This document shows positions 694 to 30,660 of a stretch of DNA of 30,728 nt, in pieces. Both the position numbers and the translations under genes were made by a program. The stretch lies in the IMG/VR virus record IMGVR_UViG_3300009156_000020, positions 1 through 30,728 of that record. One strand, written 5' to 3'. The notes beneath the pieces are model-generated. The model saw nothing but the letters and a program-made list of their open reading frames with translations. It had not been told where the DNA came from and ran no database searches. Within the stretch, counting starts at the first letter, position 1, and each line of letters starts with the position of its first letter. This stretch comes from a virus.

Positions 694-777
694 TCACTTT
701 CTCCATGCTTCCAGCGCCACTGACAGCAGCAGCAATACCGCAGCAATAGCCAGCAGGATGATCACCACCCTAGTCAC
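694..777 (-). CDS. 27-residue single-pass membrane micropeptide
   Basis: A GTG start at 777 overlaps the end of the cupin-like gene by 8 bases and opens a 27-codon frame ending at 694. Residues 4-22 are almost entirely Val, Ile, Leu and Ala, followed by a short polar tail ending WRK, so it reads as one transmembrane helix with a positive cytoplasmic end. It fills the gap between the cupin-like gene and the methyltransferase exactly. Small membrane proteins like this can be lysis accessories or modulators of host membrane enzymes, but nothing in it points to one of these. There is no clear ribosome-binding site, so translational coupling is assumed. Confidence 0.45.
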   Translation of the reverse strand: MTRVVIILLAIAAVLLLLSVALEAWRK

Positions 778-1204
778 ACGCTTGCGTGAATCCCCATGGC
801 TGTTGATATGGACCCACCAGCAGCAGGGTCCAGCAGTCTTTGTCTAGCAGTTCAATGCGGTGCCGGTCTGCTGCGGTGAAGACGTTCACGCTTCCAGGTT
901 CATACAGGCTGACGCTGGAGACATCATCATCGGCGCAGCGGTATTCCCGATAGCCACCCGTCAGGATCAGACTGATGCCCCATGCCCACGGATGAGAGTG
1001 CACTTCTTCTGCCGGGTCTGATGCCAGGAAGTGGTGGAGATACATGGTGGACTTCGGCTGCTTCGTCAGTGGGTTCCAGCCAATGATGAAGTAGCGCAGC
1101 AGGTATGGCTTTCCCTGTGGTTCGATCTTCTGGGCAAACGTCTGGCGTGTGACCCCTTCACACCAGATGCGAATAGCGGCTTCATCCCACAGGGCAGTAG
1201 TCAT
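770..1204 (-). CDS. Cupin-like metal-binding protein
   Basis: This 144-residue protein has the layout of a small single-domain cupin: a histidine pair H69-S-H71-P, then G-rich strand GGYREYR with a possible ligand Glu87, then a second motif with G104 and H115 (RHRIEL) and a closing beta strand. These match the first and second cupin motifs that hold one divalent metal. Cupins include dioxygenases, isomerases and sugar-binding proteins, so the reaction is unknown. The start codon overlaps the stop of the HNH gene (ATGA arrangement at 1201-1204), showing that both sit in one leftward transcript. It resembles cupin-like proteins seen in other phage accessory regions, but no enzyme class can be assigned. 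Confidence 0.6.
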   Translation of the reverse strand: MTTALWDEAAIRIWCEGVTRQTFAQKIEPQGKPYLLRYFIIGWNPLTKQPKSTMYLHHFLASDPAEEVHSHPWAWGISLILTGGYREYRCADDDVSSVSLYEPGSVNVFTAADRHRIELLDKDCWTLLLVGPYQQPWGFTQACD

Positions 1205-1533
1205 TGTCCCTTCCGTGTCTTCTCTGCGTGGTGCATGCGACAGAGACCCTGCAAGTTACTCCGTGCCCAGAACAGAAACGGGTCACCATGATGCGGCTGG
1301 ATGTGGTCAATGTCCACCGCTGGCTCTACTCGGCCTTCACACTGACACGCCACACACAGTGGGTTCTGCCTGAGTACCAGCGCACGCATCCCCCACACGG
1401 GATGTCTCCACCGCTGGATGTAGTACCACGCACGCCACGGCTGCTGGTCTACTCTGCGTTCAGCGTGCTTCTCACACGGACCCAGCACACTGCACCCCTG
1501 CACGTGGCACGGCTTCAAGGGTGCGCTGGGCAT
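1201..1533 (-). CDS. HNH endonuclease
   Basis: The 110-residue protein carries a complete HNH nuclease domain in its C-terminal half. C60-x-x-C63 and C98-x-x-H101 form the structural zinc site. D76-H77, N93 and H102 give the catalytic DH...N...H pattern. An N-terminal C9/C14/C20/H23 cluster may bind a second zinc ion. The length is typical of free-standing phage HNH proteins, which can assist terminase cleavage or act as homing enzymes. Here it lies far from the terminase genes on the linear map and next to a cupin-like gene, so its role is open. Start ATG at 1533 lies ten bases after the stop of the 25-residue gene upstream. Confidence 0.88.
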   Translation of the reverse strand: MPSAPLKPCHVQGCSVLGPCEKHAERRVDQQPWRAWYYIQRWRHPVWGMRALVLRQNPLCVACQCEGRVEPAVDIDHIQPHHGDPFLFWARSNLQGLCRMHHAEKTRKGQ

Positions 1534-3425: not shown

Positions 3426-3977
3426 TTACTGCTGGTCTTCACGGTCTTCCAGGTGCTGTGGAGTCAGTGCCCGTGTCTTCTTCTGCTGGTGCAGCGTGCG
3501 TAGCTGTTCGATCAGGCTGACCGTGGCATACCGTTCCCGTGTGGTCATCAGCTGTGGGTCCGGTGATGGCATGGCCTTCATGGGTGGTGGTGCCCCACAC
3601 GTCTGGCGCAGCAGCGACAGTGCAGCACGTGCTTCGTCCGTGGTCAGTGGCTGCGGCTGCTGCTCCTGCACGGCTGGTGCGGATGGTGGCAGTGGTGATG
3701 GGCGCTGCCCCTTCAGCGCACGGTCCACCCGTGTCATAGCTTCGCCCAGCAGCGTCAGTGGCTGGGGATAGGTCAGATCCAGCTGGATGATGCGGCACTT
3801 GATCCGTTCCCGCCATTCCGCATCGTCCATGGACAGGTCTGCTTCCAGCAGCTGGCGTGCAATGGCACACAGTTGCCGCAGCGGCACAGGCTTCCGCTTC
3901 CAGGGGTCTTCGTTCCCTTCCGTGCGTGCATTCCGGTGCGTCAGCGCCGGTAGGTATTTGCTTGTTGTACGTACCAT
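3426..3977 (-). CDS. Hypothetical 183-residue protein
   Basis: The N-terminal 90 residues are charged and helical (WKRKPVPLRQL..., DDAEWRERIKCRI). The middle is Pro/Gln-rich (PSPLPPSAPAVQEQQPQP), and the C-terminus is again helical with basic and acidic residues. This looks like two small helical parts joined by a flexible linker. No family is recognised. It follows the AT-rich spacer 3978-4068 and directly precedes the HTH gene, whose start lies just past its stop. The start ATG at 3977 is not well supported by a ribosome-binding site. Confidence 0.7.
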   Translation of the reverse strand: MVRTTSKYLPALTHRNARTEGNEDPWKRKPVPLRQLCAIARQLLEADLSMDDAEWRERIKCRIIQLDLTYPQPLTLLGEAMTRVDRALKGQRPSPLPPSAPAVQEQQPQPLTTDEARAALSLLRQTCGAPPPMKAMPSPDPQLMTTRERYATVSLIEQLRTLHQQKKTRALTPQHLEDREDQQ

Positions 3978-4068
3978 CCCAGGCTGTACTACTTAAAGCT
4001 GGTTAGTACTATTAAGATCTTTGCTGTACCTGTACAACCGTAAGACCCTTACACCGTGCGATATCGTA
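3978..4068. other. AT-rich spacer with short palindrome
   Basis: This spacer is clearly richer in A and T than the surrounding genes. It holds the short inverted motif TGTACCTGTACA (about 4024-4035). On the minus strand, TTGTAC and TAATAG are 17 bases apart, a poor match to a sigma-70 promoter. It may contain a promoter for the genes downstream of 3977, but the evidence is weak. Confidence 0.3.
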
Positions 4069-4458
4069 TTAACTCTCTCTGGCTTTCGCCTTCCGGTATC
4101 GCGCCATATACTGGCGCTGCTGCTCACGTCTAGTCTTTTCCCTGGAAGCAGTTGGATTGAACTGGTGATAGTCATTGATGCGGTATCCACCCTTGACCTT
4201 TCGCCACAGCCATATCCCCCGTGCTGACATGGCTGAAGCCACCGCGAACTGGTTCTGAACTGGCGCTGAATTTTCCAGTTCCTGACGCGGGATGAATCCA
4301 TCGGTCAAATGTTGCCGTGCGTAGGCAATGCCCCATAGGAACAGGTGAATGACCGTGGATGTCCCAGACGCACCCGTGGATGACTGTGAATGACCATCCA
4401 AACGTGCCGCAGCTTTTCTGACTTTTGGATGACGTAATAGTCCGTCATGAATGAGCAT
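4069..4458 (-). CDS. Replication-initiator-like winged-helix protein
   Basis: This 129-residue protein starts with HDGLLRHPKVRKAAARLDG and continues with ...LFLWGIAYARQHLTDGFIP... and ...GIWLWRKVKGGYRINDYHQFNP, then a very basic tail (REKTRREQQRQYMARYRKAK). This is the layout of the N-terminal winged-helix domain found in phage replisome organisers and primosomal proteins of the DnaD/DnaT kind, where the tail contacts DNA. It stands directly downstream of the candidate origin at 4459-4604, which supports a part in replication initiation. The usual C-terminal helicase-loading domain is absent. Function is inferred from pattern and position, not from a decisive motif. Confidence 0.6.
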   Translation of the reverse strand: MLIHDGLLRHPKVRKAAARLDGHSQSSTGASGTSTVIHLFLWGIAYARQHLTDGFIPRQELENSAPVQNQFAVASAMSARGIWLWRKVKGGYRINDYHQFNPTASREKTRREQQRQYMARYRKAKARES

Positions 4459-4604
4459 TCATTCACCCCCGTGAACTGGACGCGAACTTGACGCGAATTT
4501 TCGCTTACCTACTTAAGTGCTAGACTGCGTAAGACTTCTCCCAATTACACAATGCCCCCATAGTGCCTGTGCATAACCTGTGGATATTTACACACGTGTG
4601 CAAA
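4459..4604. other. Candidate replication origin with DnaA boxes
   Basis: This AT-rich stretch lies between two winged-helix-type genes. It contains a perfect DnaA-box core TGTGCATAA at 4568-4576 and, 11 bp further, TGTGGATAT at 4579-4587 (one mismatch), followed by a near-perfect palindrome TTTACACACGTGTGCAAA at 4587-4604. GACGCGAA occurs at 4479 and 4490, also 11 bp apart. A 20-base element at 4542-4561 matches one in the 9154-9173 control region at 19 positions. Together these suggest an origin or a control site; activity cannot be shown from sequence. The last 17 bases lie inside the neighbouring gene. Confidence 0.5.
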
Positions 4605-5013: not shown

Positions 5014-5868
5014 TCACTTACCTTTGTCTGTGGACTGTTCACGTTCAGCCATGGCCTGCCACCAGCTGGGAAGTTTCTTCTTCTTATCAGCCAGCGCCCG
5101 GTTGTACATGTCCACAATCACGGCAGCAATACACATGGTCTTTGGACTGCCCGTCTTCAGGTGTGTCTCTGCGGCTTTACGCAGAATACCGGGCACCCCA
5201 TGTGACACGGCTGACAGCCGCTGCACCATGTGCTTTTCGTCAGTCATGCCATTGAAACGATTGAAGACTTGTCCCAGTCCTTCAATGACCACACCCGTGA
5301 AGGCTGTAGGATCCCCGTCATAGGCATCACGCAGCGTGCGCACCACTTGCCCTAACACACGGTCATCACCCAGTGCTTTGACCTTTGCCAGTGCGGTGAC
5401 GGCGCTGATGCAGTTGGGTTCTTTGCTGCGGGAGATCTTGCAGCCATTCGTTTCTACAATGCGGCGGATGGCTGTTTCGCGGGGGTGCTCTGCCGTGCAG
5501 TGCAGGTGAAACAACGAAAACGGGGAGACATTCAGCTGCGCATTCAGGCCAATAAAGGTATCAGCCATCTGCTGGTCAGTCAGGTTCTCATACACCCGGC
5601 ATTCAATTTCATAGTCCCCGAAGTCACGCTTCCGCAGCGCATAGATGCGGTGCTGCCCGTCAACAATCCAGTAACCCCCGTCACGGTGGTTCATGGTGGG
5701 CAGACCTAGCTTCTCCAGCGCCAGATTGGCCGCTAGCCGGTCCCCGTGCCCCTTATTGAATTCACGCTGGGTGACGAGTGCGGTGGGTGTGCGCATCAGC
5801 GCAATGGGCACCAGATAGATCTTGGCTTCCTGCGCTAACTTCGGTATCTTCTTTGCTGCTGCTGCCAT
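5014..5868 (-). CDS. ParB/DGQHR-domain protein
   Basis: This 284-residue protein has YWIVDGQHRIYAL (about residues 66-78), the DGQHR signature shared by ParB-like and DndB-like domains, where it lines the nucleotide or phosphate site. Upstream of it, VTQREFNKGHGDRLAANL provides the first helix of the fold. The rest is helical and ends in a basic tail. No ParA is encoded, so a classical partition role is not supported; phage proteins of this type are usually found in replication and recombination operons. The start ATG at 5868 is backed by AAAGGC. Its first 107 bases overlap the end of the other ParB-like gene in a different frame. Confidence 0.82.
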   Translation of the reverse strand: MAAAAKKIPKLAQEAKIYLVPIALMRTPTALVTQREFNKGHGDRLAANLALEKLGLPTMNHRDGGYWIVDGQHRIYALRKRDFGDYEIECRVYENLTDQQMADTFIGLNAQLNVSPFSLFHLHCTAEHPRETAIRRIVETNGCKISRSKEPNCISAVTALAKVKALGDDRVLGQVVRTLRDAYDGDPTAFTGVVIEGLGQVFNRFNGMTDEKHMVQRLSAVSHGVPGILRKAAETHLKTGSPKTMCIAAVIVDMYNRALADKKKKLPSWWQAMAEREQSTDKGK

Positions 5869-6751
5869 TGGTCTGTGCCTTTCTCGCCAGTTGGCGGATG
5901 AAGGTGTCCAGTGTCTGACGTGCTGCGGTTAGTTGATCGACCCACGTCCTTATCCGGCGTGGGTCGATGTCATCCAGGTCAATCAGTTCCACACCCACGG
6001 TCAAGTTTTCTGCGGCGCACACAAAGCGGTCCATCACATCATCAGGCTTGAGTCTGCGCGTACGTCCAGCCACACGGTCACCAGGACAGGCAATGCCGTG
6101 CACCTTCATTTCCTTGCGGCACCAGTCTTCACCACGCTTCAGCGTCTTGGACATCTGACGGCTGGTGTATCCCTGTGCAGCCAGATCACGGAGCCGCAGT
6201 AAGGCAGCTTCACGTGCTGCACCGCGTGATGGTGATGACTTACCGTCTTTGCCCTTGCGCAGTGCATCAGCCGTGCTGTGTAATTTGCCTGAACCATGTT
6301 CCACGGCAGCAATGGTGGCTGGGTCACCGTGCCTTAGCACCGCACGTGCTGCCTGCACGACAGTCCTGCTGACTCCCAGCAGCTTCCCAGCTTCCTGTTC
6401 TGTCAATGCTTTATTTTGAGCATTGACAGAACCCCCGTGCCCACCGTGGATTGCCGTGACCAAACGCCCAGCAATGAAGGCACGCTGTTTCACCGTCAGG
6501 TGTCTACGATGCAGGTTCATCGACACAATGAAGTTCTGCACGGTGCCTTCCCCATCCCACAGACGATGGTCCGGTTCCCGGTTCAGGGCAGCACACGCAC
6601 GTGCTCTGTTGCGTCCATCAAGGATGCAGCCGTCACCGTCAATGATGATGGGCGTACGTAGTCCGTGGACACGGATGTCAGCCACCAGATCATCGAAGTC
6701 CTTCCCGGTCATCAGCGGCAGCAAGTCCGCTATCGGGTGAAATGCACGCAT
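5762..6751 (-). CDS. ParB-like N-terminal domain protein with HTH
   Basis: The protein begins with a ParB-like nuclease/CTPase-type domain: [47 protein letters not shown] (residues 4-60). This is followed by [14 protein letters not shown] and [22 protein letters not shown], a helix-turn-helix as in ParB/KorB proteins, so it probably binds a specific DNA site. The C-terminal half is helical and its last 35 residues, coded in the overlap, are low in complexity. Start is ATG 6751, because AAAGGAGG lies just upstream and inside a longer frame opening at 6772. With no ParA, likely roles are transcription control or DNA handling during replication. Confidence 0.87.
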   Translation of the reverse strand: [329 protein letters not shown]

Positions 6752-6768
6752 AGTGATACATCCTCCTT

Positions 6769-7710
6769 TCATGCCTTCACTGTTCTTCGCTGCAGCACGG
6801 TCTTCAGCCGTGCCTTATACGCCGCACGGAGTGACCGGATAGCTTCATCATCCAGACCCGTGGCTGCCTTTAACTGCTTCGCTACGGCTTCTAATTGCTG
6901 CCGGTCCTTCGCTGCCAGCAACCGTGTTAACCATTGCTGCTCTAGGTCTGGCTCGAGTGCGACACCACCACTGGCCCAGGTCGCTAACTGTCTGCCGCTG
7001 TCTTCCGTAATCGGCTGGTCCAGTGGGAACAGCGCCCGGTGCTGCTCCTGTAACTTGATGGGCAGTGGCACCCCCGGATGGTCGGGCATCAGCAGGAAGC
7101 TGGCGGTCAGTTCATAGGGGAGATTCTTCTCTGAGATAGGCACCCAGCCATTCAGCCCTGTTAGTGTCTGCTTCTCCCTGACTTCCCATGTGCCCTTATC
7201 CGTGCGCACCATTTCGATCTTGGGTTCAGCACGGAAGCAGAGAATTAGATGGGGACGTATCTGCAGCAGCTGCTGCATCATCCGCTTGTGACCCATCTTG
7301 GGCTTGATCCAGCTAGCCATCTTGCAGGCTTCCCGCTTCTTCCAGTCCTGCCCTGCCATCCGGTCCAGTTCATCTTCCTGCTGGTCTAAGATGCCCCCTT
7401 CCCCTGCCCATTCATGGGACATGGAGTCCACCACAATAACGGGATAGGGTCCGTCAGCGGCTGCCGTGATGGCTTCCGCATACCGGTCTGGCGTGAACGG
7501 TGGACGCAGATCCCCATGGTCAAAGCGGAAGCGGTCAGCGTAGTGCTTGGCCCTGCCTGCCTCTGTGTCAATGACGCAGAAGGGCGCATCACCCGCCATC
7601 CCATTCGCCAGACGCATGGCCGTGAACGTCTTTCCGCTGCCGCTGCTGCCGGATAGACCGATCAGGAGTCCGACGTTTTCACGGGTGGCTGGGCGGAAGT
7701 CAAACGCCAT
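6769..7710 (-). CDS. Sak4-like RecA-fold ATPase (AAA_24)
   Basis: The 313-residue protein has the Walker A motif GSSGSGKT at residues 21-28 and Walker B VIVVDS at 91-96. FCVIDTEAGRAKHYAD matches the strand-2 region of RecA-fold ATPases of the Sak4 type that support single-strand annealing recombination in phages. A conserved-looking SEKNLPYELTASF segment follows. The C-terminal 80 residues are helical and probably regulate or oligomerise the protein. It lies directly after the exonuclease and a 58-residue gene, as expected of a two-part recombination module. Its stop is separated from the ParB-like gene start by only 17 bases. ATP-dependent loading on DNA is inferred from the family. Confidence 0.88.
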   Translation of the reverse strand: MAFDFRPATRENVGLLIGLSGSSGSGKTFTAMRLANGMAGDAPFCVIDTEAGRAKHYADRFRFDHGDLRPPFTPDRYAEAITAAADGPYPVIVVDSMSHEWAGEGGILDQQEDELDRMAGQDWKKREACKMASWIKPKMGHKRMMQQLLQIRPHLILCFRAEPKIEMVRTDKGTWEVREKQTLTGLNGWVPISEKNLPYELTASFLLMPDHPGVPLPIKLQEQHRALFPLDQPITEDSGRQLATWASGGVALEPDLEQQWLTRLLAAKDRQQLEAVAKQLKAATGLDDEAIRSLRAAYKARLKTVLQRRTVKA

Positions 7711-7886
7711 CAGCGCCGGTCCTTTACTGGCTTCATTTCACCCGTCAGCCGGTCTGTCATCCGCAGGATGGGAATGACAAACAGCTGCCGGTCACCGTTC
7801 TGGTGTTCCACTTCCAGGGTGGCTTCCTGAATGGCCGTGGGTCTGTCTTCCCAATGCAGACTAATGACAATGGCCGTGACCGTCAC
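7710..7886 (-). CDS. Hypothetical 58-residue protein in the recombination module
   Basis: The start is taken as GTG 7886, five bases after the ribosome-binding site AGAAGGAG and overlapping the exonuclease stop. A longer reading from 7907 would lie inside the exonuclease gene. The product is beta-rich: alternating Val and Thr at the start, then ATLEVEHQNGDRQLFVIPIL and a basic end. Its stop shares a base with the ATPase start, so all three are translationally coupled. No family is recognised; a small accessory of the exonuclease or ATPase is the obvious guess. Confidence 0.7.
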   Translation of the reverse strand: MTVTAIVISLHWEDRPTAIQEATLEVEHQNGDRQLFVIPILRMTDRLTGEMKPVKDRR

Positions 7887-8758
7887 CGTAACTCCTTCTC
7901 TAACCATTCCGCTTCATGCCACGGGGGCAGGGTGGCGTAACAGGTCTGCCGTGGATAACCGGTCCAGTCTCCTGACTGGAGACACGCACGCCAGATGTCC
8001 AGCGCATACAGACACTTCTTCTCTGCCAGCATCAGCGCATCTGGACCCAGACTAATGACGCTGCAGGCATAGGGGGGGTAGGTCTCCTGCACGCAATAGC
8101 GGAAGATGGCAGGGTGCCCGGTCAGTATCTGCAGTCCACGCAGATACCACGCAGCCTGAATGTCCCAGCCGTTCTGGAACATGGACCGTGACCAGATGTC
8201 AGGATTGGCGCTGCCGCTGGTGGTCTTGAAGTCATCCACAGCCAGCGGAGTCTGACGCAGCCAGTCCAGCCGTGCCCTGCACCACACGCCGTACCCGTCT
8301 TCCTGCCACACCAGCGTGCGTTCAGGTTCCCCATTCAGAAACATCCCCGCACTGCCGCTGTCCTGGTGCTGCGCTAGCTGCAGCCGCAGCGCCGTCACCA
8401 TCTGCAGCACGTCATTCCAGCGGGGGGCAAGGATAGGCGTCTGCCCCCGTGCCCATGCCTGATCACGGGCATCCTTCGCCGCATTGGTCCGGTAGTCCTT
8501 CGCATCAATGACCGTGACGGCTGTGCTGCCTTCCAGCAGCAGTGCATGTGCGGCACGGCCAATGTCAAAGGCTTCGCAGTTCTCTGGTTCGACATCCAGG
8601 TTCAGCCGTGGGTGTGCCTGCCGTGCATGGGCAGCGGAGTGCAGGCAGATGCGCTGCGCTAGTGAACTGGACAGGGATGGCGCGGGGCAGGGGTCTGCGT
8701 GGTAGACCTGCGCCGGAATGTCATAGATCCCCGCTGTCAGGGTCTGCTGTTCAGACAT
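7883..8758 (-). CDS. PD-(D/E)XK exonuclease (RecE/YqaJ-like)
   Basis: This 291-residue protein has the full motif set of RecE- and lambda-exonuclease-like nucleases: GRAAHALLLEG (67-77, His71), the EPERTLVW segment with Glu144/Glu146, RARLDWL (161-167, Asp165), DFKTT (176-180, the D-x-K catalytic pair) and the helix QAAWYLRG (201-208). Such enzymes trim 5' ends of double-stranded DNA to expose single strands for annealing by the partner recombinase, here most likely the Sak4-like ATPase. The start ATG 8758 is chosen because GGAAGGG lies eight bases upstream. It is the first gene of the leftward block and lies just below the repeat array at 8796-8855. Confidence 0.9.
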   Translation of the reverse strand: MSEQQTLTAGIYDIPAQVYHADPCPAPSLSSSLAQRICLHSAAHARQAHPRLNLDVEPENCEAFDIGRAAHALLLEGSTAVTVIDAKDYRTNAAKDARDQAWARGQTPILAPRWNDVLQMVTALRLQLAQHQDSGSAGMFLNGEPERTLVWQEDGYGVWCRARLDWLRQTPLAVDDFKTTSGSANPDIWSRSMFQNGWDIQAAWYLRGLQILTGHPAIFRYCVQETYPPYACSVISLGPDALMLAEKKCLYALDIWRACLQSGDWTGYPRQTCYATLPPWHEAEWLEKELR

Positions 8759-8795
8759 AGCGGTGCCCTTCCCCACTGGCAAAACAGATTTCCAC

Positions 8796-9145: not shown

Positions 9146-9184
9146 AATGGGGGCAATTCCACAATGCCCCCATTGTTGTATAAT
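9146..9184 (+). promoter_or_regulatory. Rightward promoter with overlapping operator
   Basis: A perfect -10 hexamer TATAAT lies at 9179-9184; the -35 region is weak (TCCACA at 9158-9163 is the best match, 15-base spacer). A perfect 10-bp inverted repeat, AATGGGGGCA (9146-9155) and TGCCCCCATT (9165-9174), covers the -35 region, so a bound dimer would block the polymerase. It would drive the rightward operon from 9225. Part of the element is repeated near the candidate origin (4542-4561). Confidence 0.6.
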
Positions 9185-9224: not shown

Positions 9225-9452
9225 GTGAAGAAGAAGACCAGGAAGCAGAAGCACACCGTGGAAAGGCAGGCACGTCCCACACGGGCGTACAGCCGGGACT
9301 TCACCCCGTCACGGGGTGACGGCCATGACTTCAAGATTCGCCGCATCCCTGATGCGTTCTGGAAACAGGTGCAATCGAAGGCGAAGCGTGAAGGGGTCAG
9401 CTTACGGGGGATGCTGCTGACGCATCTGCAGCAGTGGGTGGAGGCAGACTAA
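9225..9452 (+). CDS. Ribbon-helix-helix DNA-binding protein
   Basis: Residues 36-75 read FKIRRIPDAFWKQVQSKAKREGVSLRGMLLTHLQQW, a single ribbon-helix-helix unit: a beta strand, a helix, the turn at EGVS and a second helix. The N-terminal 30 residues are strongly basic (KKKTRKQKH). The start is GTG 9225, preceded by GGGAG; an upstream ATG in the same frame (9141) lies inside the promoter operator and is rejected. As the first gene after the controlled promoter, it is a good candidate for an autoregulator that binds 9146-9174. A dimer is expected from the family. Confidence 0.8.
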   Translation: MKKKTRKQKHTVERQARPTRAYSRDFTPSRGDGHDFKIRRIPDAFWKQVQSKAKREGVSLRGMLLTHLQQWVEAD

Positions 9453-26030: not shown

Positions 26031-26207
26031 TTATTCCTTCTGCGCCGTTTCAGCATATTGCAAGGCAGTGCGCACTAAGTCAGGCACGCTGCGTTTCAGC
26101 AACAGCGCACGCTGATATAGCCGGTCATATCGTTTGCTGGGTAAGGCGAAACTGACCGCAACAGACCGGTCAGCTGGATCGATACGTGGTCTGCCTCTGC
26201 GCTTCAT
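26031..26207 (-). CDS. 58-residue ribbon-helix-helix-like protein
   Basis: The start ATG overlaps the terminase stop (ATGA at 26204-26207) and the frame ends at TAA 26031. The product begins RRGRPRIDPADR, then VAVSFALPSKRYDRLYQRALLLKRSVPDLVRTALQYAE, a strand-helix-turn-helix plan typical of Arc/CopG-like DNA-binding proteins. Ribbon-helix-helix proteins often regulate their own operon. Its place, between the large terminase and the HNH gene, is unusual; the pair could be a regulator-nuclease cassette. Confidence 0.7.
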   Translation of the reverse strand: MKRRGRPRIDPADRSVAVSFALPSKRYDRLYQRALLLKRSVPDLVRTALQYAETAQKE

Positions 26208-27733
26208 GGCTGCCCCCCGAAGATGAATGCCTGATACTGCTTCGGCGCTGGCGCTGCGGTCTGCCGGTCTTTGCGGTCTACCGCCATCACCAGTGCTGCC
26301 ACCGTGTCTATCCGTGCGGATGACAGCTTCTTGGATGGCTTCATGTTCCCCGCATGATCGGTCTCTACCGCGACATTGCCCACGTGATGGCGCAGCACGG
26401 GGTGCCCATTGTGGCGCAGCGTGCGGGATAGGACGGACTTCTCCAGGGATTTAGTCGGAGCAGACAGCTGCGCCAGACCCTGCCGCACCGGCACGCACGT
26501 GAACCCGTCCTGGTCCTTCAGCCGGTTCACCAAGTCCGTGGCATTCCACGGATCGAAGGCCACTTCACGCACGTCACTGCTGTCCGCCCATGTCGCCAGT
26601 TCACTGCGGACCCGTTCATAGTCCACGACATTGCCGGATGTGACGATCAGGTGTCCATCCGCTGCCCACTGTTCATAGGGCAGCCGGTCACGGAGTCCCC
26701 GTTCATGCAGCTTGTCTCCCGGCAGGAAGGCTGCCACCCGCACAGAGAAGCCATCCCCATCCGCATCAGGATAGACAGCCACCATGGCCGTGATATCCGT
26801 GGTGGTGGACAAGTCCAGTCCGACATAACAGGGTCCGCTCCAGGTAGACCGCTGCTCGCAGCAACTGTCCCATGCGTCAATGCCAATCCATCTGGCGGCT
26901 TGCTCTGTCCACTGATTCAAGTACAACCGTCGAAACGTGTTCTCCTGTGCGGGTATCTCCTGCGCACGGGCAGCCATCACCCGCATTTCATCCATGCTGC
27001 GGAAGTCCCCCAGCGCCGGATTACACCCACGCCAGACGGCTTCATCACGCCAGTCCGCATCTTCTGCGGCTTCATAGATGACCGGCAGGAATGATGGATC
27101 TAACTTGGGATTGACTAAGACGTTCTTCGCGTGTGCATACAGTTCATACAAGATACTGTGCCGGTCATAGCCTGCCGTGGAGATAGCAATAACTAAGGGC
27201 TGTGCTCTCGCACCCGTGCTGCTGGCTAAGACATGCCATAACTCAGAGTTAGGCGCACAATGCAGTTCATCATAGATGATCCGGCTAGCGTTAAATCCAT
27301 GCTTAGAATACGCTTCTGCAGAGATAGCCCGGTACACGGACCCAGACTTCCGATGCACGATGCGCTTCTGACTGTCTAAGATGTCGCACTGTGACAGTAA
27401 CTGCGCATCGTTTCGGATCATCTGTGCTGCGACATTGAACACCAGTGCTGCCTGATCACGGTCTGCTGCGGCACTATAGACTTCTGCGCCAGCTTCCCCA
27501 TCAAACAGCAGTCCATCAATCGCCAGCGCAGCGGCTATCTCTGTCTTGCCGTTCTTGCGTGGCAACATCAGCAGCATGGTCCTGGTCACCCGTCTGCCCC
27601 GTTCCGTGCGGAACAGTGGACGGATGATGCGCCGTTCCTGCCACTGGCGCAGCTTGAACGGCTGACCGGCAAATGGACCCTTGGTGTGGGTCAGCTTGTT
27701 GATGATTTCAACCTTGCGTGTGGCATCAAGCAC
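26204..27733 (-). CDS. terL: Terminase large subunit
   Basis: The 509-residue protein has the ATPase part with a Walker A-like PRKNGKTE (58-65), Walker B IIYDE (152-156) and LVIAISTAG (the coupling motif C region, AISTAG). The nuclease part shows GLDLSTTTDITAMV, a typical acidic start of the RNase H-fold domain, and later AFDPWNATDLV. This is the HK97-type large terminase family, which packages DNA through the portal. The family uses cohesive ends in several members, but the terminal sequence here cannot decide. The start is GTG 27733; 71 bases separate it from the preceding small zinc gene. Confidence 0.93.
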   Translation of the reverse strand: MLDATRKVEIINKLTHTKGPFAGQPFKLRQWQERRIIRPLFRTERGRRVTRTMLLMLPRKNGKTEIAAALAIDGLLFDGEAGAEVYSAAADRDQAALVFNVAAQMIRNDAQLLSQCDILDSQKRIVHRKSGSVYRAISAEAYSKHGFNASRIIYDELHCAPNSELWHVLASSTGARAQPLVIAISTAGYDRHSILYELYAHAKNVLVNPKLDPSFLPVIYEAAEDADWRDEAVWRGCNPALGDFRSMDEMRVMAARAQEIPAQENTFRRLYLNQWTEQAARWIGIDAWDSCCEQRSTWSGPCYVGLDLSTTTDITAMVAVYPDADGDGFSVRVAAFLPGDKLHERGLRDRLPYEQWAADGHLIVTSGNVVDYERVRSELATWADSSDVREVAFDPWNATDLVNRLKDQDGFTCVPVRQGLAQLSAPTKSLEKSVLSRTLRHNGHPVLRHHVGNVAVETDHAGNMKPSKKLSSARIDTVAALVMAVDRKDRQTAAPAPKQYQAFIFGGQP

Positions 27734-27998: not shown

Positions 27999-28457
27999 TC
28001 ACAGCAATCCTGCCCACTTGGACTGCTCTGGGGTCTCTGCCAGCGGCAGCTTAGACAGCCGTGCCCTGCCCTTGGGGGTCAGTCCCAGGTCACGCCAGAG
28101 CGTCACGCACTGGTGCAGTGCCTTATCACTGATGCGGATAAACCGCGCCAATGTCGCGCTGTCTCCCTGTCCAGATGCCCGTATCTTCTGCTCTGTATCC
28201 AAGTACCTGGACCACTGCTGACAGCACGCAATCAGCGCACTGCGGTCAGCCGTGGTGACCAGACCGGACTGCCGCAGCAGCGGGACCACCCGTGCCCATT
28301 CAGCCATGGCCCGTTTGTTCTGCTGCAGTTCCTGCGGTGGCGTATCAAAGTCTGCTGTGGCAGGTGGCAGCTGCGGCACGGACTTGGCCCTGACCCTGCC
28401 TCCCACTACTTTCAGCGTGCCTTCTTTCGCTCTGCGTCCACTGTTCCAGCCACCCAT
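27999..28457 (-). CDS. terS: Terminase small subunit (P27 type)
   Basis: The 152-residue protein reads like the P27 family: a basic N-terminus (MGGWNSGRRAKEGTLKVVGGRVRAK), then helices with NKRAMAEWARVVPLLRQSGLVTTADRSALIACCQQWSRYLDTEQKI and DKALHQCVTLWRDLGLTPKGRARL, including the phrase LGLTPKGRARL common in this family. It recognises phage DNA and loads it onto the large subunit. The start ATG 28457 is five bases from the previous stop. The cos or pac site is not identified. Confidence 0.9.
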   Translation of the reverse strand: MGGWNSGRRAKEGTLKVVGGRVRAKSVPQLPPATADFDTPPQELQQNKRAMAEWARVVPLLRQSGLVTTADRSALIACCQQWSRYLDTEQKIRASGQGDSATLARFIRISDKALHQCVTLWRDLGLTPKGRARLSKLPLAETPEQSKWAGLL

Positions 28458-28741: not shown

Positions 28742-28970
28742 GGTGGCCTTCCTTCCTGAAGATTAGCCGTCCTGCCTCCCCAAGTATTTCCACATTCGCC
28801 AGCAGCGTGATGGTCACTTCTGTGACTTCACCCACGTGGGCATGCACGTCCACGCCACGCACATAGTTGGACACGTCCACCCCATCCATCAGCAGCGTGC
28901 AGTCCACGCCATGGGCACCAATCTTCAGGCAGAGTGTCGGTCTTCTGGATGCAGCTGCGTCATGCGCCAT
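28731..28970 (-). CDS. Hypothetical 79-residue protein
   Basis: The start ATG 28970 follows GGAG by seven bases and overlaps the cytosine methyltransferase stop by 11 bases, so an in-frame start at 29045 is rejected. The product reads RPTLCLKIGAHGVDCTLLMDGVDVSNYVRGVDVHAHVGEVTEVTITLLANVEI, which is beta-rich with a small sandwich look, and recurs in phages near terminase genes as a protein of unknown role. The C-terminus is basic. Confidence 0.7.
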   Translation of the reverse strand: MAHDAAASRRPTLCLKIGAHGVDCTLLMDGVDVSNYVRGVDVHAHVGEVTEVTITLLANVEILGEAGRLIFRKEGHREG

Positions 28971-29652
28971 GCTGATACTCCAGCGTGTGACTGTCCGTGT
29001 CTCTGAACAATGGCTGCTGTAGGTCCAGTGCTGTGCCCTGCCCAAACCACTGCGCAGCCATGGCGGCTGCTATTCCAGGATACGTCCGGGCACGGTCTGC
29101 AGACCGGGTGGGTGATGGGGCCAGACGGTTGTGCCCCGCGTCTGTCTGATTGGCCCATCGTTCAATCAGCCTGCCCTGCACACGCACCAGCCTGCCCGGA
29201 ATGCGTCTGGTCGGACGCAGCAGCGGCAGACCCTTCAGCCACAGGCAGGTAGCTTTGCAGGCATCTTCACCGAAGTCATACGGCTGGATGATCTGGTCAG
29301 CCGGTCTGATGGCTGTCCCAATCCGCCCACGGGGATTCTCCAGCGCAATACGTGGCACAGGGGCACGCAGCAACTGCCGCACAAAGTCCACCGCTGCAGC
29401 ACTCATGGTCACCCGTTCAGGTCTGCGAGTATTCCAGTGCAGACCACTGGCGCAGAGATACGTGCAATCAGGGAAGGCCACCAGCGCATCCCACTGCCTG
29501 CTGTCCAGCAGCACTGTCCGCACGTCAGCCTGCAGGTGGAACGGACTGCCGTCTTCCGCTGGCTTCAGGTCACAGGACCATGCGTCATGCCCCAGCGCAC
29601 GGCAGGCCGCACGCACTCTGCCGCTGCACTCACAGGCTACCAGGATACGCAT
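28960..29652 (-). CDS. Dcm-like cytosine methyltransferase family protein
   Basis: The 230-residue product has RILVACECSGRVRAACRALGHDAWSCDLKPAE (SAM-binding motif I region), DALVAFPDCTYLCASGLHWN (catalytic motif IV with PDC in place of the usual PPC) and IALENPRG (motif VI). ACKATCLWLKGLPLL follows, also typical of short phage cytosine methyltransferases. The catalytic Cys is retained. It may be an active orphan 5-methylcytosine enzyme or a degenerate form. Start ATG 29652 is chosen (GGGTGAAG upstream); the frame extends to 29709. No recognition domain is evident. Confidence 0.8.
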   Translation of the reverse strand: MRILVACECSGRVRAACRALGHDAWSCDLKPAEDGSPFHLQADVRTVLLDSRQWDALVAFPDCTYLCASGLHWNTRRPERVTMSAAAVDFVRQLLRAPVPRIALENPRGRIGTAIRPADQIIQPYDFGEDACKATCLWLKGLPLLRPTRRIPGRLVRVQGRLIERWANQTDAGHNRLAPSPTRSADRARTYPGIAAAMAAQWFGQGTALDLQQPLFRDTDSHTLEYQHGA

Positions 29653-29657
29653 CCACT

Positions 29658-29882
29658 TCACCCACGGCTGAACAGGTGCTGCTGACCGGCGCACCGGGCA
29701 GCATCCCACCGCTGACCCGCCGCTGACGTAGTACGCTCACCGGACTGAAGCACACAGGATCTGCGGTGGACCGCTGGGACTTTCAAGATCAGCCCACACC
29801 AGTGACAGTGCGCAGAATCGCTGGAATCATTGAATGTTTTGACGTGTTTTGGCAAATTCACCGAATCATTCAATGTTTTCAT
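29658..29882 (-). CDS. Small zinc-finger protein with repeated KTxNDS start
   Basis: The frame from ATG 29882 begins KTLNDSVNLPKHVKTFNDSSDS, with KTLNDS and KTFNDS coded by a nearly exact 17-base direct repeat (about 29822 and 29862). CHWCG...HRRSC follows (C...C...H...C zinc site). The C-terminus is basic. GAAGG nine bases upstream supports ATG 29882 over an earlier in-frame start at 29909. Base composition at the start is AT-rich. Function unknown; the repeat could serve as a binding site as well. Confidence 0.6.
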   Translation of the reverse strand: MKTLNDSVNLPKHVKTFNDSSDSAHCHWCGLILKVPAVHRRSCVLQSGERTTSAAGQRWDAARCAGQQHLFSRG

Positions 29883-30071
29883 CACCAAAACCTTCAAAAT
29901 CCTTAGCAAAAACGCGATAAGTCCCCAGAAGTTGCGCCGACACTACGACGGTTAGAGGGGGGGGGTGCACTTACGACCCTTCCGCGCCCCCCGGTCAGGA
30001 GCGGATGAACGGCTGCAAGTGAACATCCGTGTGCGCGTGTTCGCCGTGTCTGATGTGCGTGCGGCACGGTG

Positions 30072-30302
30072 TCAGTCCGGTGATGGCGCGAACTTCGCGG
30101 GATGCCCTGTCACATCCGTGTGTGTGTCCGCTGGACGGATGGAGTCAGGCAGCGGTGCAGGGGCGTTGATGTCTCCTGCTGGCGCTGGTGCGGTCACAGG
30201 GGCATCCTGCACAATGTCTGCGGGATGCAGACCACGGGGTATTCTATTCAGCAGTTGCCGCTGCATCTGCCGGTTTTTCTGGCTGCGTCCACGTGTGGGC
30301 AT
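30072..30302 (-). CDS. Hypothetical Pro/Ala-rich protein (76 residues)
   Basis: ATG 30302 follows a G-rich stretch that can serve as ribosome-binding site. The product begins with a basic part (PTRGRSQKNRQMQRQLLNRIPRG), then turns acidic and Pro/Ala-rich (DAPVTAPAPAGDINAPAPLPDS). It may be disordered. Upstream lies the TGCCCC array 30326-30444, which would control it. There is no family match; the frame could be accidental. Confidence 0.45.
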   Translation of the reverse strand: MPTRGRSQKNRQMQRQLLNRIPRGLHPADIVQDAPVTAPAPAGDINAPAPLPDSIRPADTHTDVTGHPAKFAPSPD

Positions 30303-30325
30303 ACCCCACCCCCCCTAATTGAAAG

Positions 30326-30444
30326 TGCCCCGATTACTGGCCGATCTACCTGTGGGGCAGAGCATGCCCCCCTTACGGCAGTTACTGCCCCCCAAAGTGG
30401 CACGTGCCCCGTGCGGACTAACCGTGGGGCAAATGGTGCCCCCC
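30326..30444. promoter_or_regulatory. TGCCCC/GGGGCA operator-like array
   Basis: Seven TGCCCC or GGGGCA elements start at 30326, 30354, 30365, 30386, 30405, 30426 and 30437; the last six are 11, 21, 19, 21 and 11 bases apart, near multiples of the helical turn. Two of them form perfect GGGGCA-N5-TGCCCC dyads (30354-30370 and 30426-30442), and GGCA-N5-TGCC at 30377-30389 is a shorter version. The array lies between two leftward genes and runs into the end of the first. The same GGGGCA/TGCCCC halves occur in the dyad at 9146-9174. Confidence 0.65.
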
Positions 30445-30660
30445 TTTGTGGGTCAGCCGTGCAATCTGTTCTTCTTCTGCCGTCATCCACTTCAGCTGCT
30501 GTCCGGTGCAGTGGCGCTGGCGCAGACCATGTGACTGCAGCCGCTTGTCCAGTGCCTTCAATGGCGTATCGTGCCGGTGCTGCAGGATGAACCCGATCCG
30601 GTTACAGCCTGCACATTGCCAGTAGCGGGTGGTGTAGAGACTCCAGTCTGTGCGTGGCAT
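30418..30660 (-). CDS. Small protein with CxxC, crossing the circular join
   Basis: The 80-residue frame starts at ATG 30660 (equal to position 55 in the first copy) with GAAGGTGA upstream, and ends at 30418. It has WQCAGCNRIGFILQHRHD (CxxC plus two His), a likely small zinc site, then helices LKALDKRLQSHGLRQRH and MTAEEEQIARL. The C-terminal codons overlap the operator-like array. It follows the methyltransferase gene 82-678 across the join, with 26 bases between. Function unknown. Confidence 0.65.
   Translation of the reverse strand: MPRTDWSLYTTRYWQCAGCNRIGFILQHRHDTPLKALDKRLQSHGLRQRHCTGQQLKWMTAEEEQIARLTHKGGHHLPHG

Follow-up and report, generated by a model that had tools for sequence, protein, structure and literature searches.

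Clustered GGGGCA half-sites ahead of the terminase block of a phage genome: a putative multi-site binding region with half-sites retained in a relative

What is a dense group of short GGGGCA half-sites doing ahead of the terminase genes of a phage? The window in which this question arises (the whole contig IMGVR_UViG_3300009156_000020, 30,728 bp) has a perfect terminal repeat of 123 bp and therefore represents a circle of 30,605 bp. The majority of its genes are transcribed leftward, the exception being the integrase operon, which has its promoter at about 9150-9184 and runs rightward from 9225 to about 12,600. On the leftward side of this promoter follow the recombination genes, the initiator, the HTH and HNH genes, the accessory genes, the array, a methyltransferase-like gene, TerS, TerL and the structural genes (Table 1). 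A sequence-only reading had proposed that one repressor acts at both the array and the integrase promoter, keeping the phage silent in spite of its having no recognisable CI protein. Accordingly with that premise, no CI-like repressor was found among the scanned proteins of this phage group; no close prophage was found in genome_contigs. To place the array where the late block starts was, in turn, imprecise: between it and the terminase genes come first a small gene and then the cos cut that we infer.

Table 1. Coordinates of the array, of its parts and of the other features discussed (window numbering)
Feature	Position	Strand	Remark
Cysteine-dioxygenase-like protein, phrog_4786	770-1204		adjoins HNH gene; 75% identity in G001
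HNH endonuclease	1201-1533		
HTH protein	3164		
AT-rich, GTAC-rich segment after initiator gene	3940-4068		conserved in G001; alternative origin candidate
Replication initiator, phrog_2447/3926/9474 (N-terminal part)	4069-4458	-	
ParB-like proteins, mutually adjacent	5014-5868 and 5762-6772		absent from otherwise syntenic G001
AAA protein (recombination)	6769-7710		
Exonuclease (recombination)	7883-8782		
Operator-like palindrome AATGGGGGCA-N9-TGCCCCCATT	9146-9174		upstream of integrase-operon promoter, TATAAT 9179-9184
Arc-like ribbon-helix-helix protein, phrog_6506	9225-9452	+	first gene of integrase operon
TerL	26204-27733		
TerS	27999-28457		
Phage DNA-methyltransferase-like gene	28960-29709		
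Most AT-rich stretch of genome, AAAACATTsAATGATTC repeats	29801-29931		left-end side of inferred cos
Inferred 12-nt cohesive-end segment, HK97-type cos, CGTCGTAGTGTC	29939-29950	-	from sequence comparison
Right-end G-tract	29987-29992		37 bp before inferred cut
76-aa ORF just downstream of array	30072-30302	-	
Array half-sites	30326, 30354, 30365, 30386, 30405, 30426, 30437	-, +, -, -, -, +, -	
Lone half-site GGGGCA	30326-30331	-	
Perfect dyad GGGGCA-GAGCA-TGCCCC (N5)	30354-30370		
Imperfect dyad ACGGCA-GTTAC-TGCCCC (N5)	30375-30391		pairing limited to GGCA/TGCC
Lone half-site GGGGCA	30405-30410	-	within GGCACGTGCC palindrome
Perfect dyad GGGGCA-AATGG-TGCCCC (N5)	30426-30442		overlaps 3' end (last codons) of gene 30418-30660
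80-aa ORF upstream of array	30418-30660	-	

The claim of seven half-sites in 120 bases stands, positions included: seven GGGGCA/TGCCCC words lie within 117 bp (30326-30442), with GGGGCA on the minus strand in five cases and on the plus strand in two. Two N5 dyads are perfect and a third is imperfect, and the statement that the half-sites mostly fall at multiples of a helical turn holds weakly, since the successive TGCCCC spacings are 39, 21, 19 and 32 bp and only 21 and 32 fit well. The array is non-coding, in the gap between the two small leftward genes and ahead of the terminase block, except for the dyad that runs over the end of the upstream one (a gene for which a search of viral contigs returned no relatives). 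Chance and local composition are ruled out as its source by shuffling: when the circular genome was shuffled 300 times with its dinucleotides preserved, no 120 bp contained more than 4 such words, against the 7 observed, and none of 5000 shuffles of 30300-30480 gave either 7 half-sites or 3 GGCA-N5-TGCC dyads. In hexamer clustering, GGGGCA ranks first of all the 6-mers of the genome. Its genome-wide count is 53, compared with 36 +/- 5 in shuffles, and outside the array it occurs 30 times for 26 expected under a higher-order Markov model; with no clear excess there, the local cluster is the anomaly, and a Chi-like genome-wide word is ruled out. The nucleotide sequence of the array had no match in phages or plasmids.

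Is the array retained in other phages? The comparison rests on two genomes, the window and a relative found via the initiator protein (IMG/VR 3300005290_000045, 30,537 bp; hereafter G001), which spans nearly the whole genome in the same gene order, with 83% identity in TerL, 80% in the integrase and 60% in the initiator. At the syntenic place, past the cysteine-dioxygenase-like gene and ahead of the terminase block, GGGGCA occurs six times within 101 bp of G001, always on the same strand (the transcribed one) and with no N5 palindromes, whereas 4 were reached in only 2 of 300 shuffled genomes. The array region of the window aligns with that of G001 better than any of 1000 dinucleotide shuffles does, narrowly so for the array by itself (47 against a maximum of 46); the two have AAGGGGGGCACCA..TG...CACGG in common, but not the N5 palindromes. 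A near-identical contig (3300009094_000079) and two TerL relatives (L006 and L007) end short of the array, and no GGGGCA dyad or cluster was found in five more distant relatives (G002, G003, L210, L212 and L214), some of whose contigs are possibly incomplete there.

Between these two phages, thus, the half-site word is retained and the palindrome is not, which favours half-sites read in DNA over an RNA hairpin, a terminator or a ParB centromere. If the dyads acted in RNA, their hairpins might terminate, process or antiterminate the leftward transcript, and stems of six base pairs with five-base loops could form on either strand; however, no U-tract and no terminator-like site were found (the GC-rich stems are not followed by a T-run), the loop sequences vary, and G001 has lost the stems but not the half-sites. 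On those grounds the hairpin or terminator was rejected, and a role in RNA is hardly credible. A ParB/parS centromere was rejected as well, because G001 has the array without homologues of either member of the ParB-like pair. There is also the view that the array is a neutral relic, its short G-tract words having arisen in number through slippage or duplication in place, where accessory genes turn over. Coherent with it, the genes just upstream of the array differ between the two phages while the array stays beside the stop codon, and GGGGGGCA is scattered in the coding sequence of the window too. Nonetheless, retention at the syntenic place despite diverged sequence speaks against a relic, and simple slippage leaves the mixed orientations and the dyads unexplained, all of which makes this origin distinctly unlikely.

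If the half-sites are read in DNA, does the same protein read the integrase promoter? A GGGGCA-type dyad with a longer spacer was indeed found at that promoter as the sequence-only reading had described, its spacer being N9 and not the N5 of the array. The palindrome is present in both phages, as CAAATGGGGGCA-N9-TGCCCCCATTG in the window and CACAATGGGGG-TCCATCCAGGAATGC-CCCCCATTGTG in G001, with CAATGGGGG...CCCCCATTG as its conserved part; the core (C)AATGGGGG occurs in all four arms of the two phages, and GGGGCA in three of the four (in G001, in one arm only). The idea of a single repressor thus gains from a non-random, non-coding array that is syntenic in the relative, from a promoter palindrome common to both phages and from an Arc-like first gene in the integrase operon, but it loses from differences in flanks, spacing and extension and from the G001 arm without GGGGCA. 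CAAT precedes no array half-site in either genome, so that the two loci do not have the same extended half-site, and the sites overlap a promoter at 9146-9184, but none was found in the array. It is possible that one protein reads both loci, although the comparison does not support it, because the array half-sites lack CAAT and are preceded by other bases. It is favoured by the G>=6 runs of G001, four in all, each of which reads GGGGGGCA: one lies in the operator, two in the array and one beside the inferred cos. The broader proposal, i.e., that one protein reads GGGGGGCA at the integrase operator, at the right-end G-tract and in the array between the right-end genes and cos, would be a long shot.

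The mention of cos leads to packaging. The contigs of G001, G002 and G003 start alike, upstream of the terminase, with five to seven bases followed by ATTTTC; G001 ends in ...CCCTAAC and starts with GGCGCA..., without the 12 bases CGTCGTAGTGTC that the window carries between TAAC and GGCGCA. The contigs of all three relatives seem to end at the equivalent place, and, taking these contig ends as physical ends, we infer an HK97-type cos at about 29939-29950. The cohesive ends of HK97 are 3' extensions, given as 10 or 12 nt, and the site bound by its small terminase, which includes an A-tract, spans +15 to +29 (PMC11331095, PMC9410871). The likeness to such systems (HNH - cos - terS - terL) includes the gene order, an alignable cohesive-end segment and A-tract, and a G-tract before the right end. 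The distance from this tract to the right end is 42 bp in HK97 and HK022, and 35 and 36 bp to the contig end in G003 and G001, respectively. More generally, a G>=6 tract occurs in 12 of the 17 HNH-terS gaps or right ends compared, for 3.3 expected from shuffles, usually 25-52 bp before the cohesive end (the carriers include HK97 (L244), HK022 (L245), L246, L250, G001, G003 and L210), and a literature search turned up no description of this right-end G-run of HK97-type phages. In phi105 and rho14, a C-run replaces the G-run in the HNH-terminase gap.

Could the array then be an accessory part of cos, made of extra copies of the right-end G-tract? The inferred cut is 375 bp away, the cos-proximal tract of G001 (GGGGGGGCAT) repeats the word of the array units, and three of the four G>=6 tracts of that genome fall in the array-cos segment, besides the recurrence of such tracts in the gaps compared. 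Against it, several array half-sites have four G only, and we know of no cos system requiring sites 400-500 bp inside the right end. The array is GC-rich and lies 375-494 bp inside the right end, whereas the HK97 small terminase binds solely at +15 to +29, across the cut (PMC11331095); therefore, the array is not the packaging recognition site, and an accessory packaging role is unlikely.

Another possibility is a lambda-O-type origin, with the array as the iterons of the winged-helix initiator and with unwinding in the AT-rich stretch at 29801-29931. This reading draws on viral contigs scanned for GGGGCA-N5-TGCCCC in the vicinity of GGCA-N5-TGCC, with 64 loci found (L097-L160): such arrays, with a spacing of about 20 bp, recur across many unrelated phages, in 34 of the 64 loci they lie 49-159 bp 3' of a winged helix (HTH_36 type) inside an initiator gene, and all 10 array genes examined matched replication-initiation PHROGs. 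This placement is seen over a wide range of GC content. The control word GGGGAC-N5-GTCCCC also lay 3' of a winged helix in 8 of 32 loci, so arrays of this kind are generally lambda-O-type iterons and not peculiar to GGGGCA. The array of the window resembles them in its repeated short dyads at about two-turn spacing and in the presence of a predicted winged-helix initiator. However, in lambda the iterons sit inside the O gene and next to a tract rich in AT (PMC7466680), whereas this array is intergenic, 4.2 kb on the circle from the initiator gene, and has no AT-rich tract directly adjoining it. The 100 bp of the genome with the highest AT content lie some 400 bp off and are better explained by cos; 29801-29931 is best read as cos-associated.

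The initiator itself is short and has repeats of its own, namely six TCATYCA at 4346-4465 (about 120 bp) around the gene start, for a maximum of 2 in shuffles, and the conserved AT-rich segment follows the gene; the repeats are hardly conserved in G001, with two at most per stretch. Initiator relatives (L166 and L168-L170) likewise have clustered words inside their own genes. A structure model of the initiator (pLDDT 88) had no significant match in the PDB. The skew at 4-fold sites does not change across the array and tracks the coding strand only, which rules out a strand-composition switch as the mark of an origin. Taken with the missing N5 palindromes of G001, these observations make an origin at the array improbable.

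Our preference, held tentatively and with less than even confidence, is to read the array as a region where a putative phage-encoded protein with sequence-specific DNA binding would occupy multiple sites and modulate leftward transcription. The candidate protein would read the half-site GGGG(GG)CA in an array flanked by the variable right-end genes and by the cos/terminase block; several half-sites, in either orientation, could be loaded with dimers or with monomers side by side and make up a nucleoprotein patch, and this patch may modulate leftward transcription into the cos-terminase-late region, be it read-through from the early region or transcription from a promoter as yet unrecognised. 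The likeliest binders would be one of the ribbon-helix-helix proteins (9225, 11618 or 26031) or the HTH protein; of the three ribbon-helix-helix proteins named by the sequence-only reading, that at 9225 has PHROG support, while the other two remain putative, with one weak Pfam match. The clustering beyond chance, the non-coding position and the six GGGGCA of G001 at the syntenic place are shown, and the binding, the binder and the effect on transcription are what we infer. In favour of this reading, too, the word outlasts the palindromes, as half-sites in DNA predict, both phages have the small DNA-binding proteins, and every G>=6 tract of G001 reads GGGGGGCA and falls in the operator, in the array or beside cos.

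What weakens the protein-array reading is chiefly the negative result for a sigma-70-like promoter, looked for within the array and just past it. In addition, the genomes compared are two, the flanks and the spacing differ from those of the integrase operator, and the orientation bias (five of seven half-sites in the window and six of six in G001 on the transcribed strand) is needless for a dimeric repressor. The operators of the ribbon-helix-helix proteins Arc, MetJ and CopG offer the closest likeness in their clustered short half-sites, both direct and inverted, and this phage encodes an Arc-like protein; the array differs in having no recognised promoter and candidate binding sites only, and in that it matches the likely autoregulated operator at 9146-9174 in GGGGCA only.

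If bound by a phage regulator, the array would be a first clue to the control of packaging and late genes in this phage group, and, were a single protein to read GGGGGGCA throughout, it would couple the control of lysogeny to the cos/terminase region. Apart from this, the comparison yields a testable position for cos and a G-tract that recurs in HK97-type phages at about 35-42 bp from the right end. It also shows that a dense GGGGCA-N5-TGCCCC array in a phage is most often the sign of a replication initiator gene, which is of use in annotation.
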